64,000 bases of DNA from an uncultured Pelagibacteraceae bacterium (GTDB lineage: Bacteria; Pseudomonadota; Alphaproteobacteria; Pelagibacterales; Pelagibacteraceae): positions 149,226 to 213,225 of the forward strand of contig CACOMI010000001.1 of the NCBI GenBank assembly GCA_902628275.1. Reading direction: 5' to 3'. The number at the start of each line of letters is the position of its first letter. The first letter of the stretch is position 1. The translations under genes were made by a program, and so were the position numbers. Under the pieces are notes generated by a model that worked only from the letters and a program-made list of their open reading frames with translations, had not been told where the DNA came from and made no database searches. Of this stretch, positions 1,532 to 4,523 are shown one piece after another.

Positions 1532-2128
1532 TTATTTTTCTATCAAAAATATACCTAGATCTGCAAACAAATTTTTAATTCCTAAATTATTCTCATTTAT
1601 TATTGATGAATTAAGATTATTTAAAGCAAGTGATTTAAAAATTTTAATATCTTTTGATTTTACAAAGTGAAAAAAATCTTTAATTGTACACATATGTAAA
1701 TTTGGTGTGTTATACCATTCATCTGGTAATGTTTTTGTAATTGGCATTGTACCTTTTAATAATAAATGAAATCTTACTTTCCAGTATCCAAAATTAGGAA
1801 TCGTAACTATTGCTTTTTTTCCAACTCTTAAAAGTTCATCTAAAACTAATTCAGGATTAAGAAAAGCTTGAAGGGTTTGACTTAAAACAACATAGTCAAA
1901 TGATTTGTCTGGAAATTGCTTTAAATCTTTTTCAGCATTTCCTTCAATTACAGTTAAACCTTTAGCAATACATTCTTGTACTTTTTCTTTTGAAATCTCT
2001 AATCCTCTTATATTTATGTTTTTATTATCCTTTAAAAATTTCATCAAAGTTCCGTCGGCACAACCTACATCTAAGACTTTCTTATCTTTTTCAATTAAAT
2101 CTGCTATTATCTGAAATTCATTTTTCAT
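1532..2128 (-). CDS. metW: Methionine biosynthesis protein MetW
   Basis: The 198-residue protein is a class I SAM-methyltransferase fold with motif I VLDVGCADG at residues 18-26 and the MetW-typical stretch LQAFLNPELVLDELLRVGKKAIVTIPNFG. MetW proteins partner MetX homoserine acetyltransferases in many proteobacteria and are needed for full methionine synthesis; the exact reaction is not settled from sequence. Here it follows metX by only two bases, the classic metX-metW pair, so it falls under the same SAM-II riboswitch control. Confidence 0.93.
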   Translation of the reverse strand: MKNEFQIIADLIEKDKKVLDVGCADGTLMKFLKDNKNINIRGLEISKEKVQECIAKGLTVIEGNAEKDLKQFPDKSFDYVVLSQTLQAFLNPELVLDELLRVGKKAIVTIPNFGYWKVRFHLLLKGTMPITKTLPDEWYNTPNLHMCTIKDFFHFVKSKDIKIFKSLALNNLNSSIINENNLGIKNLFADLGIFLIEK

Positions 2129-2130
2129 AA

Positions 2131-3246
2131 TTAATTTTCTTCGTAAGATTTATCTAAAAAGTTTTTAAGTGCGTTTAAGAAATCAGGAACGTCTAATAAG
2201 AAGGAGTCGTGACCTTTATCTGAATCAATTTCTACAAATCCAACATCAGCTCCTATTGAGTTTAAAGCAATCACAATATCTTTGTTTTCTTGGGTTGGAT
2301 AAAGCCAATCTGAAGTAAATGAGATTATAAAAAATTTCGCTTTTGAATTTATAAATGCTTCTGAAAGATTACCTTTGAATTGCTTAGCTAAATCAAAATA
2401 ATCCATAGCTCTAGTAATATAAAGATAACTATTTGCATCAAATCTATCTACAAAAACTGAGCCCTGGTATCTTAAATAACTTTCTATTTGAAAGTCAGCG
2501 TCAAATCCAAATTTAAGATCTTCTCTTTCTTGTAACTTCCTTCCAAATTTTTCCTGCAAACCTTTTTTAGATAAATAAGTTATGTGAGCTGCCATCCTAG
2601 CTACCGCCAATCCTTTTCCAGGATTAGTTTCGTTTGATGTATAGTTTCCATCTCTCCAGTTACTATCAGCTGTAATAGCTTGTCTGCCTAGTTCGTTAAA
2701 AGCAATATTTTGTGCTGAATGACTAGATGTGGTTGCTATTGGTATCACTGTTTTAGATTTATCAGGAAAGTTGCTTATAAACTGAAGGACTTGCATACCT
2801 CCCATTGAACCACCAGTTATAGAAAATAGTTTATCAATACCAAAATGATCAAGTAAATTATATTGAGCATTAACCATATCATTAATTGTAATAACTGGAA
2901 AATTTGTTCCAAAAATTTTTTGATCAGGATCTTTATGACTTGGTCCGTATGATCCCATACATCCACCAATTACGTTAGAGCAAATGACAAAATATTTATT
3001 TGTATCGATAGCCTTATCAGGTCCTACTGCATAACTCCACCAACCCTCTTTGTTAGTGACAGGGTTTATTCCGGTTACAAATTGATCTCCTGTTAGAGCA
3101 TGAAAAACTAATATTGCATTATCTTTTTTAGAATTAAGTGAACCATAAGTTTCATAGGCTAGTGGAAAATCTTTTATGGTTTTTCCACAGTCTAATTTTA
3201 GTGGTTTCTTTACAATTAAAGTTTTTATGTTTTTCTCAGTATTCAT
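2131..3246 (-). CDS. metX: Homoserine O-acyltransferase
   Basis: This 371-residue alpha/beta-hydrolase acylates homoserine (normally from acetyl-CoA) as the first committed step of methionine synthesis by direct sulfhydrylation. The nucleophile elbow GGSMGG puts the catalytic serine at 147. The Asp and His of the triad lie in SDWLYPT and KGHDSFLLD near the C-terminus. NVIGGCMGSYGPSH around residues 91-104 is a family hallmark. Length is normal for MetX. Some MetX-fold enzymes use succinyl-CoA, so the acyl donor is inferred. A SAM-II riboswitch precedes the gene, and metW and gloB follow. Confidence 0.93.
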   Translation of the reverse strand: MNTEKNIKTLIVKKPLKLDCGKTIKDFPLAYETYGSLNSKKDNAILVFHALTGDQFVTGINPVTNKEGWWSYAVGPDKAIDTNKYFVICSNVIGGCMGSYGPSHKDPDQKIFGTNFPVITINDMVNAQYNLLDHFGIDKLFSITGGSMGGMQVLQFISNFPDKSKTVIPIATTSSHSAQNIAFNELGRQAITADSNWRDGNYTSNETNPGKGLAVARMAAHITYLSKKGLQEKFGRKLQEREDLKFGFDADFQIESYLRYQGSVFVDRFDANSYLYITRAMDYFDLAKQFKGNLSEAFINSKAKFFIISFTSDWLYPTQENKDIVIALNSIGADVGFVEIDSDKGHDSFLLDVPDFLNALKNFLDKSYEEN

Positions 3247-3280
3247 AGTTTTTTACTGTTTCGAATTGTGAGAAAAAAAA

Positions 3281-3331
3281 CTATTTTAGCGGTTTTTTTT
3301 AAGCGCTCGCAATTCAGTTAAATCAGCGCAT
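3281..3331 (-). ncRNA. SAM-II riboswitch upstream of metX
   Basis: On the minus strand from about 3331, the leader shows P1 strand GCGCT, then GATTTAACTG, then AATTGCGAGCGC (the AGCGC closes P1), an A-rich linker and CCGCTAAAATAG. This order and wording match the known SAM-II (metA) fold: GCGCUGAUUUAAC, AUUGC, AGCGC, then a pseudoknot strand GCUAAAA. SAM-II RNAs bind S-adenosylmethionine in alphaproteobacteria, mostly before metA/metX-type genes. Oddly, a run of eight U follows the pseudoknot strand, and no clear Shine-Dalgarno lies before the ATG 35 bases further on. Confidence 0.87.
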
Positions 3332-3335
3332 AATT

Positions 3336-3364
3336 TTTTTACTAGAACTTATTTATTATGTCAA
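3336..3364 (-). promoter_or_regulatory. Sigma-70 type promoter of metX
   Basis: A perfect -35 TTGACA (3364-3359, minus strand), a 17-base spacer and a -10-like TAAAAA (3341-3336) place the transcript start at about 3329-3331. That is exactly where the SAM-II aptamer begins. The -10 matches only four of six consensus bases, but the coincidence with the aptamer 5' end supports it. Confidence 0.65.
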
Positions 3365-3437: not shown

Positions 3438-4523
3438 ATGACAACTCCAAATTTCAAAAAATTTAATATTGAGGTTTATAAGCCTGGAAAATCAAAAGTT
3501 AAGAAACTTAAGAACGTAATTAAGCTTTCTGCGAATGAGTCTGCTTTAGGCATGAGTCCTAAAGCAAGGAAAATAATATCAAATAAAAATCTAAATTTAG
3601 ATAAATATCCGGATGGAAAATCTCAAAGTTTAAGAAAAGCAATATCTAAAGCTTATAAATGTAATTCTGAGAAAATAATTTGTGGAGCAGGTTCAGATGA
3701 AGTGATTCAAATGATATGTCAGTTGTTTTTAAACCCAAAAGATGAGGTTGTAGTACCTGATTATAGTTTTTTAATGTACAGAATTTATTCAAAAATTGTT
3801 GGTGCAAAAGTTGTATTTGCAAAAGAAATTAATTTTAAAGTTTCAGTAAATGAAATTTTAAAAAAAATAACAAAAAAAACTAAAATTGTGTTTATAGCTA
3901 ACCCAAACAATCCTACAGGAACCTACTTAACGAAAAAAGAAGTTTTAGAATTAAGAAAAAGATTAAATAAAAAAATTTTACTAGTTATAGATGATGCCTA
4001 TGCAGAATATATGAAAAACAAAGATTATTCATCCGGGCTAGATTTGTTTAAAAATAAAGACAATGTTTTCATACTGAGAACTTTTTCAAAAATGTTTGGA
4101 TTAGCTTCTCTAAGAGTAGGTTGGGGATATGGATCAAAAAAAATAGTTGATGCGCTAAATGTTATAAAACCTCCTTTTAATGTAAATGGTATTGCTCAAT
4201 TAGCTGCAACCGAGTCACTTAAGGATAAAGCTTTTATAACTAAATCGATTAAACATAATTTATTGTATTCTGAAAAAATTAAGAAATTTCTTGAGACATA
4301 TAATATTTTTTCAAATTCAGTTTCAGCAAATTTTTTGTTACTTAATTTTGAAAAATGCAGATATTCGGCAAAATTTCTTTATGAAAAACTTAAAAATAAG
4401 GGAATTATTTTAAGATCAACAGAAGATGGTTATCGTATAAAGAATAAATTAAGGCTAACTATTGGATCTAAAAAGGAAAACTTAAAATTTATGAGTGTTA
4501 TTAAGCAAGTATTGAAAAAATGA
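3438..4523 (+). CDS. hisC: Histidinol-phosphate / aromatic aminotransferase (HisC family)
   Basis: The 361-residue fold-type I PLP enzyme has NPNNPTG at 155-161, the PLP lysine at 218 in RTFSKMFGLASLRVGWG, and the N-terminal motif KLSANES. HisC enzymes transaminate histidinol phosphate, and many also act on phenylalanine, tyrosine and their keto acids. The gene overlaps tyrA by four bases, and the pair suggests a tyrosine-biosynthetic role (prephenate dehydrogenase followed by aromatic transamination), perhaps doubling for histidine synthesis. Specificity cannot be read from sequence alone. Confidence 0.88.
   Translation: MTTPNFKKFNIEVYKPGKSKVKKLKNVIKLSANESALGMSPKARKIISNKNLNLDKYPDGKSQSLRKAISKAYKCNSEKIICGAGSDEVIQMICQLFLNPKDEVVVPDYSFLMYRIYSKIVGAKVVFAKEINFKVSVNEILKKITKKTKIVFIANPNNPTGTYLTKKEVLELRKRLNKKILLVIDDAYAEYMKNKDYSSGLDLFKNKDNVFILRTFSKMFGLASLRVGWGYGSKKIVDALNVIKPPFNVNGIAQLAATESLKDKAFITKSIKHNLLYSEKIKKFLETYNIFSNSVSANFLLLNFEKCRYSAKFLYEKLKNKGIILRSTEDGYRIKNKLRLTIGSKKENLKFMSVIKQVLKK

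Follow-up and report, generated by a model that had tools for sequence, protein, structure and literature searches.

The SAM-II aptamer before metX in Pelagibacter carries a conserved U-tract and anti-aptamer arm and may be a hairpin-less off-switch

The stretch of DNA analysed here, referred to as the window, is 64,000 nucleotides long and comes from a Pelagibacter genome in which a predicted SAM-II riboswitch lies on the minus strand of the metX / hisC intergenic region, preceding the methionine genes metX and then metW. The features of the locus are as follows.

1532..2128, minus strand: metW, the next gene downstream of metX (TIGR02081, 237.7 bits, cut-off 189.5)
2131..3246, minus strand: metX, homoserine O-acyltransferase (NF001209, 508.5 bits, cut-off 331)
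3247..3262, minus strand: spacer before the start codon, 16 nt without a Shine-Dalgarno sequence, varying in sequence among relatives
3263..3272, minus strand: putative anti-aptamer arm CUCACAAUUC, able to pair with 3306-3315 at 9 of 10 bases
3273..3280, minus strand: U8 tract, directly on the pseudoknot strand (U6-9 in 169 of 171 distinct leaders)
3281..3290, minus strand: 3' strand of the P2 pseudoknot, GCUAAAAUAG, from the 22-sequence alignment
3281..3329, minus strand: predicted SAM-II aptamer, from the first P1 base to the last assigned P2 base, placed by sub-gathering Rfam matches and conservation of pairs
3293..3300, minus strand: A8 run in the aptamer loop, able to pair with U8 in an alternative hairpin (fold and inverted repeat)
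3303..3307, minus strand: P1 3' strand AGCGC, from the same alignment
3306..3315, minus strand: aptamer core GAAUUGCGAG, for which P2/P1 and the anti-aptamer arm compete
3309..3317, minus strand: 5' strand of the P2 pseudoknot, CU...UUGC, from the same alignment
3325..3329, minus strand: P1 5' strand GCGCU, from the same alignment
3336..3341, minus strand: -10-like TAAAAA behind a 17-nt spacer; the expected start, inferred, is at about 3329-3331, the 5' end of the aptamer
3359..3364, minus strand: -35-like TTGACA, present in 169/169 architecture-matching leaders (the search expression demanded TTGAC)
3438-4523, plus strand: hisC, divergent from the metX leader (TIGR01141, 306.2 bits, cut-off 276.55)

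Read along the minus strand, TTGACA (3364-3359) is followed by 17 nt, TAAAAA (3341-3336), six bases and the aptamer from G3329 to G3281, and onward by U8 (3280-3273), CUCACAAUUC (3272-3263), 16 nt and the metX ATG at 3246, which stands 34 nt past the first U of U8. The U8 tract adjoins the ...UAG of the pseudoknot strand, and P2 may include the first one or two U of the tract. MetX is called an O-acetyltransferase by NF001209, the model whose cut-off is passed, and falls below the cut-off in TIGR01392 (450.5 against 500) and NF047916 (453.2 against 560); the acyl donor may be acetyl or succinyl.

A default Rfam scan of the window lists nothing at the leader because both SAM-II models score under their gathering cut-offs, RF01726 (SAM-II long loop) matching 3276-3335 with 32.9 bits against a curated 44 (E 1.4e-4) and RF00521 (SAM_alpha) matching 3265-3339 with 25.2 bits against 36 (E 9.9e-4, both for 401 nt searched). 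The SAM-II element proposed in the first-pass annotation is favoured by significant E values in the covariance search and falls short of the gathering cut-offs in the same search. The sub-gathering score is a matter of curation threshold rather than a structural feature, and we read it as the consequence of an A/U-rich P2, no part of the aptamer being missing. The metX leader is the single RF00521 match in its own genome at E<=0.001, and at E<=0.01 the model finds matches in 258 of the 297 genomes of the order and in all 11 of its 11 genera, 37 of the genomes exceeding the cut-off, with none in 14 control genomes. No exact match to the window aptamer, or to the 50-nt core of the crystallised SAM-II RNA, was found in viral contigs.

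The pairs of P1 and P2 were assigned by eye on the SAM-II model, and were followed through a gapless alignment of 55 columns containing 22 SAR11 aptamers from four genera, picked for equal length. All eleven assigned pairs, the pseudoknot included, are intact in 22/22 sequences (242/242 cells), and sliding the partners as a control lowers pairing to 27-54 percent. The covariation score of 0.168, against a shuffled mean of 0.084, was reached by 0 of 500 shuffles, and none reached the number of paired cells; three pairs have changed on both sides, one in P1 (U-A to C-G) and two in P2, a count equalled in 37/500 shuffles. The aptamer also aligns without gaps, and at the same length, to that of L261, a locus holding the 52-nt SAM-II wild-type RNA, and has the conserved ligand-site letters GAUUU, UUGC and GCUAAA, which we take to be those that contact SAM. 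The element is thus almost certainly a SAM-II aptamer for which SAM binding is predicted, and the Rfam matches and the eleven pairs bear out its first identification. A SAM-II element ahead of P. ubique metX (SAR11_0217) has been published before (PMC2704228, in excerpt).

The leader of the window belongs to a form found throughout the genus. Among 210 Pelagibacter metX loci (L020-L229), 208 leaders were extracted by the aptamer alone, 171 of which are distinct, and 169 of these 171 share one architecture consisting of GCUAAA, 2-5 nt (mostly ...AG), U6-9, 0-2 nt, an anti-aptamer block with the consensus CUC(A/U/C)CAAUUC or minor variants of it, and a variable spacer. The tract is exactly U8 in 108 leaders, the block stands 16 or 17 nt from the first ATG in 99 of the 169, and conservation of the leader is far above that of the adjoining spacer. 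The U8 tract had been singled out as unusual for this copy; instead it follows the rule of the genus. A search for the pattern GCTAAA-N2..5-T6-N0..5-CTCNCAATTC yielded matches in 154 of 201 genus genomes, at most one copy in each, and the reversed control pattern has zero matches in the same genomes. A metX match was found in 162 of the 201; by eye, eight metX-bearing genomes are without the exact pattern (G009, G017, G020, G026, G033, G181, G211 and G217), and in the seven of these whose leaders were compared, all but G211, the block is slightly altered.

The promoter-like TTGACA-N17-TAAAAA that had been described as ending at the aptamer is likewise a feature of the genus, TTGACA standing at a constant distance from the first P1 base in 162 of 169 leaders and 1 nt off it in the other seven. 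Given this fixed distance, transcription appears to start at the first aptamer bases genus-wide. The promoter is absent from the list of a consensus scanner because the scanner requires a T as the sixth base of the second hexamer.

The anti-aptamer block at 3263-3272 was overlooked in the first-pass annotation. The aptamer core to which it is complementary holds the UUGC half of P2 together with the start of the P1 3' strand, so that the two folds are mutually exclusive. For the 88-nt window leader the unconstrained minimum free energy structure is the anti-aptamer hairpin, extended by A8C/GU8, at -15.2 kcal/mol, and with P1 enforced the same leader folds at -13.1 kcal/mol, a figure from which the energies of the pseudoknot and of SAM are left out. 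When the arm plus 20 nt was set against the aptamer in 44 diverse representatives drawn from the 169 leaders, the duplex beat dinucleotide shuffles in 44/44 (all with z below -1.5, mean z -4.1), although the block is common by descent and the 44 tests are therefore not independent; of 1000 such shuffles, 2 reached the duplex energy for the window leader, and between 0 and 27 did so in the 13 leaders tried. The aptamer side of the anti-aptamer helix, TTGCGAGCGC, is invariant in 169/169 leaders and so leaves no room for covariation within the genus.

The one position of the block that is mismatched, opposite C3309, is A in 136, T in 25, C in 3 and G in 1 of 165 blocks. The lone block with G is also without the neighbouring C (CCTAGCAATTC), and a second G, in L151 and outside the 165-block count, brings an extra base (CTCGCATAATTC). 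A change from A to G is normally an easy one, yet G is rare here, and it therefore looks as if a perfect helix is avoided at this position. Taken with the fold energies, the comparison of leaders indicates that the pseudoknot and the arm probably compete, and it is the conserved arm that speaks most strongly for a switching mechanism. The lengths of the A-run and the U-run have a correlation of r = 0.38 in the 169 leaders and 0.24 in the 49 distinct aptamers, and a short A-run does not bring a short U-tract with it (U7-8 in 14 of the 19 leaders having A6); as proof of A8:U8 pairing the coupling of lengths was rejected, r being weak.

The lack of a clear ribosome site, which had also been remarked upon earlier, extends across the genus, with SD-like 4-mers within 22 nt after the anti-aptamer block in only 11 of 169 leaders. 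There is no Shine-Dalgarno sequence in the P2 3' strand, which in the window reads GCUAAAAUAGU. The window also has a perfect 10-nt inverted repeat over the start codon, AUAGUUUUUU to AAAAAACUAU; its arms ATAGTTTTTT and AAAAAACTAT lie within 3245-3284 and it spans both the U-tract and the start codon of metX. As a switch the repeat was rejected, several relatives being without it by eye.

A terminator scan of the window found no hairpin terminator at the metX leader, and once the aptamer is masked nothing stable folds in what is left of that leader (0.0 kcal/mol). A rule that asks for a stem with at least three G/C pairs and then a T tail, after a SAM-II aptamer, identifies 0 of 30 Pelagibacter loci (L020-L049) but 30 of 30 f2 loci (L230-L259), 11 of 11 g8 loci (L261, L266-L275), and 4 of 4 g9 and 1 of 1 g10 metX loci (L287-L291) among SAR11 relatives, on each of which metX was confirmed by tblastn with the window MetX as query. 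With the aptamer masked a hairpin of -9.6 to -16.3 kcal/mol is retained in five examples from f2, g8, g9 and g10, and one of -4.1 and -6.1 kcal/mol in one g5 and one g7 example. The rule fails at L300 and L301, another two f2 loci with hairpins judged imperfect by eye, and at three g5/g7 loci where its aptamer expression matches, and the expression misses three g7 leaders and two g6 loci. The exact pattern of P2 strand plus terminator is present in 98 of 151 g8 genomes and, of the 12 with a completeness of 90 percent or more, in 11. In g5 and g7 there is GAGG or AAGGG inside P2 and a short hairpin before the ATG, and in g6 no SAM-II was seen by eye within 240 nt upstream of metX (2/2).

In g8, g9 and g10 the P2 3' strand AGCUAAACAGGG can pair with the 5' arm and loop of the terminator, GCCCAGUUUAGCU, as in an ordinary antiterminator; in partial folding the antiterminator appears in L288 and L291 and the terminator is preferred in L261 and L287. 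Pelagibacter is without the terminator hairpin of its relatives and has instead a U-tract on the pseudoknot and an arm against the aptamer core. Besides the U9 of the terminator, the g9 and g10 leaders (L287-L291) have a U5-8 run between P2 and the hairpin; this U5-8 run sits in the antiterminator loop and is a possible forerunner of the U8 of the window.

Other arrangements of SAM-II were met in the course of the comparison. In L262 (G249, g6) the element lies before a MetW-like start, recognised by eye, and is followed by an A/T-only hairpin, AAAAAAAATTATTAATTAATAATTTTTTTT; metX of the same genome (L293) has no SAM-II in the 240 nt upstream. Three g1 genomes (G226, G391 and G247; L276, L277 and L278) have second RF00521 matches with GGAG(G/A) right after GCUAAA and an ATG a few bases on, an arrangement of the ribosome-site type as judged from its letters, and one genus may therefore contain two different SAM-II outputs; no minus-strand frame of at least 150 aa is listed in L310 behind the G226 element. 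In L260, L263 and L264 (g10, g9 and g7) SAM-II is followed by a terminator hairpin with U9, a SAM-V-like sequence (by eye) and a GGAG site, in what would be the known tandem arrangement.

The relatives also contain the SAM-II RNA widely used in structural work, a 52-nt RNA which we take to be that of PDB 2QWY. It is found exactly in 2 of the 151 g8 genomes (G358 and G459; loci L306 and L307), and in both copies a GCCCAGUUUAGCUGGGC hairpin and a U run come directly after it; in L261 GCCCAGUUUAGCUGGGC is followed by U9 and, two bases past the U run, by a metX-like frame (by eye, with a tblastn match). This RNA is given as the SAM-II wild type in an excerpt of PMC8494917, and the Sargasso Sea / metX SAM-II RNA is described as acting, or probably acting, at the ribosome site (PMC9373788 and PMC10907184, both in excerpt). 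A terminator beside the 52-nt RNA conflicts with this usual description and suggests that the crystallised RNA may work by transcription attenuation instead of ribosome-site control.

The window element shares with the known SAM-II models (RF00521, RF01726) P1, the L1 GAUUU, UUGC, the A-rich loop, the GCUAAA strand, the P2 pseudoknot and its place before metX, and differs in having neither a Shine-Dalgarno sequence in P2 nor a terminator hairpin, with U6-9 on P2 and an anti-aptamer arm in their stead. Among the closest systems is the SAM-II/SAM-V tandem at bhmT of Ca. Pelagibacter, which has the lineage, SAM-II, a poly-U run and a proposed control of transcription in common with it; as far as the excerpts of PMC11508383 and PMC9481103 go, a linker hairpin is predicted before the poly-U at bhmT and a SAM-V aptamer comes after it, and neither is seen at the window metX. 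In Sinorhizobium meliloti SAM-II likewise precedes methionine genes in an alphaproteobacterium, but the metZ and metA leaders are credited with Rho-independent terminators and, at metA, a ribosome site (PMC9373788, in excerpt), whereas Pelagibacter metX has neither. If termination is the true output, the HMP-PP (thiS) riboswitch would be comparable, as aptamer and terminator are there one structure; its small aptamer is contained almost entirely within a classic terminator stem, with mutually exclusive folds (PMC6478431, in excerpt), unlike the H-type pseudoknot without a stem found here, and the terminator scan, the masked fold and the 30 loci reveal no such stem around the aptamer. A literature search confined for the most part to openly accessible papers met no description of a SAM-II platform made of a U-tract and an anti-aptamer arm.

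Taken together, we would give a probability of roughly 0.4 to the reading that SAM-II before Pelagibacter metX is an OFF switch with a new hairpin-less platform, in which transcription ends at pseudoknot plus U-tract. The OFF logic is very probable, by analogy with known SAM-II biology and with the terminators of the relatives, and that the output is termination at the U-tract is a tentative inference. On this model RNA polymerase would start at the aptamer. With SAM present the P2 pseudoknot would be clamped, leaving the U-tract and CUCACAAUUC single-stranded, and a clamped pseudoknot seated on the U-tract would cause the polymerase to pause and most likely to release the RNA, the aptamer itself acting as the terminator hairpin. 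With SAM absent the polymerase would pass, CUCACAAUUC would pair with the core and A8 with U8, and the pairing of arm and core would dissolve the aptamer and lock the transcript in its expressed form. It is somewhat less probable that SAM-stabilised P2 takes the place of a G+C hairpin in ejecting the polymerase at U6-9 with the arm making escape irreversible.

In favour of this mechanism is a platform fixed in 169 of 171 leaders that were extracted by the aptamer alone, and the U-tract ends about as far from P2 as it would from the hairpin of an ordinary terminator. Counted against termination are the lack of a hairpin terminator, which means that termination would have to use the pseudoknot itself, and the A/U-richness of P2; we know of no established mechanism by which a pseudoknot serves as an intrinsic terminator. 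The U-tract may be conserved only for its pairing with the A8 run. Furthermore the arm is transcribed after the U-tract and so cannot influence a decision there, and its conservation indicates a later output or a second role: either RNA that has escaped is held by it in the ON form, or the true output comes later. From the literature, the SAM-II aptamer is oftenest tied to terminators in alpha- and betaproteobacteria (PMC2258182, in excerpt) and its action at bhmT and metX is described as transcriptional (PMC5069961, in excerpt). Weighed against this, the same excerpt names osmC, bhmT, metY and mmuM as the four transcripts most up-regulated when P. ubique is limited for sulfur, and metX is not one of them.

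The main rival to termination is RNA decay or Rho, whereby SAM-bound RNA would expose the pyrimidine-rich UUUUUUUUCUCACAAUUC to RNase E or Rho and the anti-aptamer hairpin of SAM-free RNA would bury it and protect the message. We hold it to be somewhat unlikely, although it has the right sign and accounts for the conservation of an arm transcribed after the U-tract. It owes its rank to the presence in the genome of genes for Rho (684.5 bits) and RNase E/G (463.6 bits) and to folding with the aptamer masked as a proxy for the SAM-bound state, in which mean pairing across 44 leaders at 37 C goes from 0.92 to 0.42 in the U-run and from 0.83 to 0.44 in the anti-aptamer block. The distance from pseudoknot to start codon is only about 35 nt, which is short for a Rho loading site, and neither enzyme accounts for uninterrupted U directly on P2.

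Control of translation is a good deal less probable. It would have the U-tract, freed by SAM, pair with the A-rich start region or alter ribosome standby, and be held by A8 without SAM, and the inverted repeat over the window start codon and the regular distance between block and first ATG would suit it. However, pairing of the U-run and anti-aptamer block with the start region has a mean z of -0.4 (below -1.5 in 7 of 44 leaders, above 0 in 20), against shuffles that keep the A content, a result compatible with pairing by composition alone. Nor does the accessibility of the start region change consistently in the masked state, being lower in 27 of 44 leaders at 37 C and in 19 of 44 at 20 C, and translational masking by U-tract or block was rejected as giving no signal. 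Of the two outputs left open by the first-pass annotation, termination or another translational route, the former thus leads, unproven, and the latter has lost ground.

It would seem less probable again that CUC(A/U)CAAUUC is a sequence-specific site, bound by a protein as RNA or acting with the aptamer DNA as an operator, and that its complementarity is accidental. The near invariance of the block fits such a site, as does a fixed aptamer side that precludes a covariation test, but nine complementary bases in ten and a duplex energy that shuffles rarely reach do not. In the genome itself there are 7 copies of CTCNCAATTC, both strands counted, among them the two arms of the metX leader, and the tolerance of A, T or C opposite a C where G is rare fits control by pairing. 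A decayed, non-functional SAM-II remnant, for which only the sub-gathering Rfam scores speak, is scarcely credible with eleven pairs kept in 22/22 sequences, compensatory changes among them, and a leader conserved far beyond the spacer next to it.

For SAM-II, a small aptamer of the textbooks, the usual division of expression platforms is between a terminator type and a ribosome-site type. What precedes metX in Pelagibacter is an ordinary aptamer on an unusual platform that fits neither type, having a fixed U-tract and an anti-aptamer arm, and the comparison with relatives casts doubt on the mechanism commonly cited for the SAM-II RNA of structural work, the neighbour of which in the genome is a terminator. 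If RNA decay or Rho is the output this would likewise be unusual for SAM-II. Pelagibacter is a dominant bacterium of the ocean, about 20 percent of marine metagenomic reads having P. ubique as their nearest match (PMC2704228, in excerpt), and the platform hints at an unusually compact off-switch for a gene. Should termination be confirmed, Pelagibacter metX would have an intrinsic terminator that is gated by a ligand and made from a pseudoknot, in a lineage without the terminator hairpin of its relatives, and if it is true that a pseudoknot terminates alone, the definition of an intrinsic terminator would become wider.
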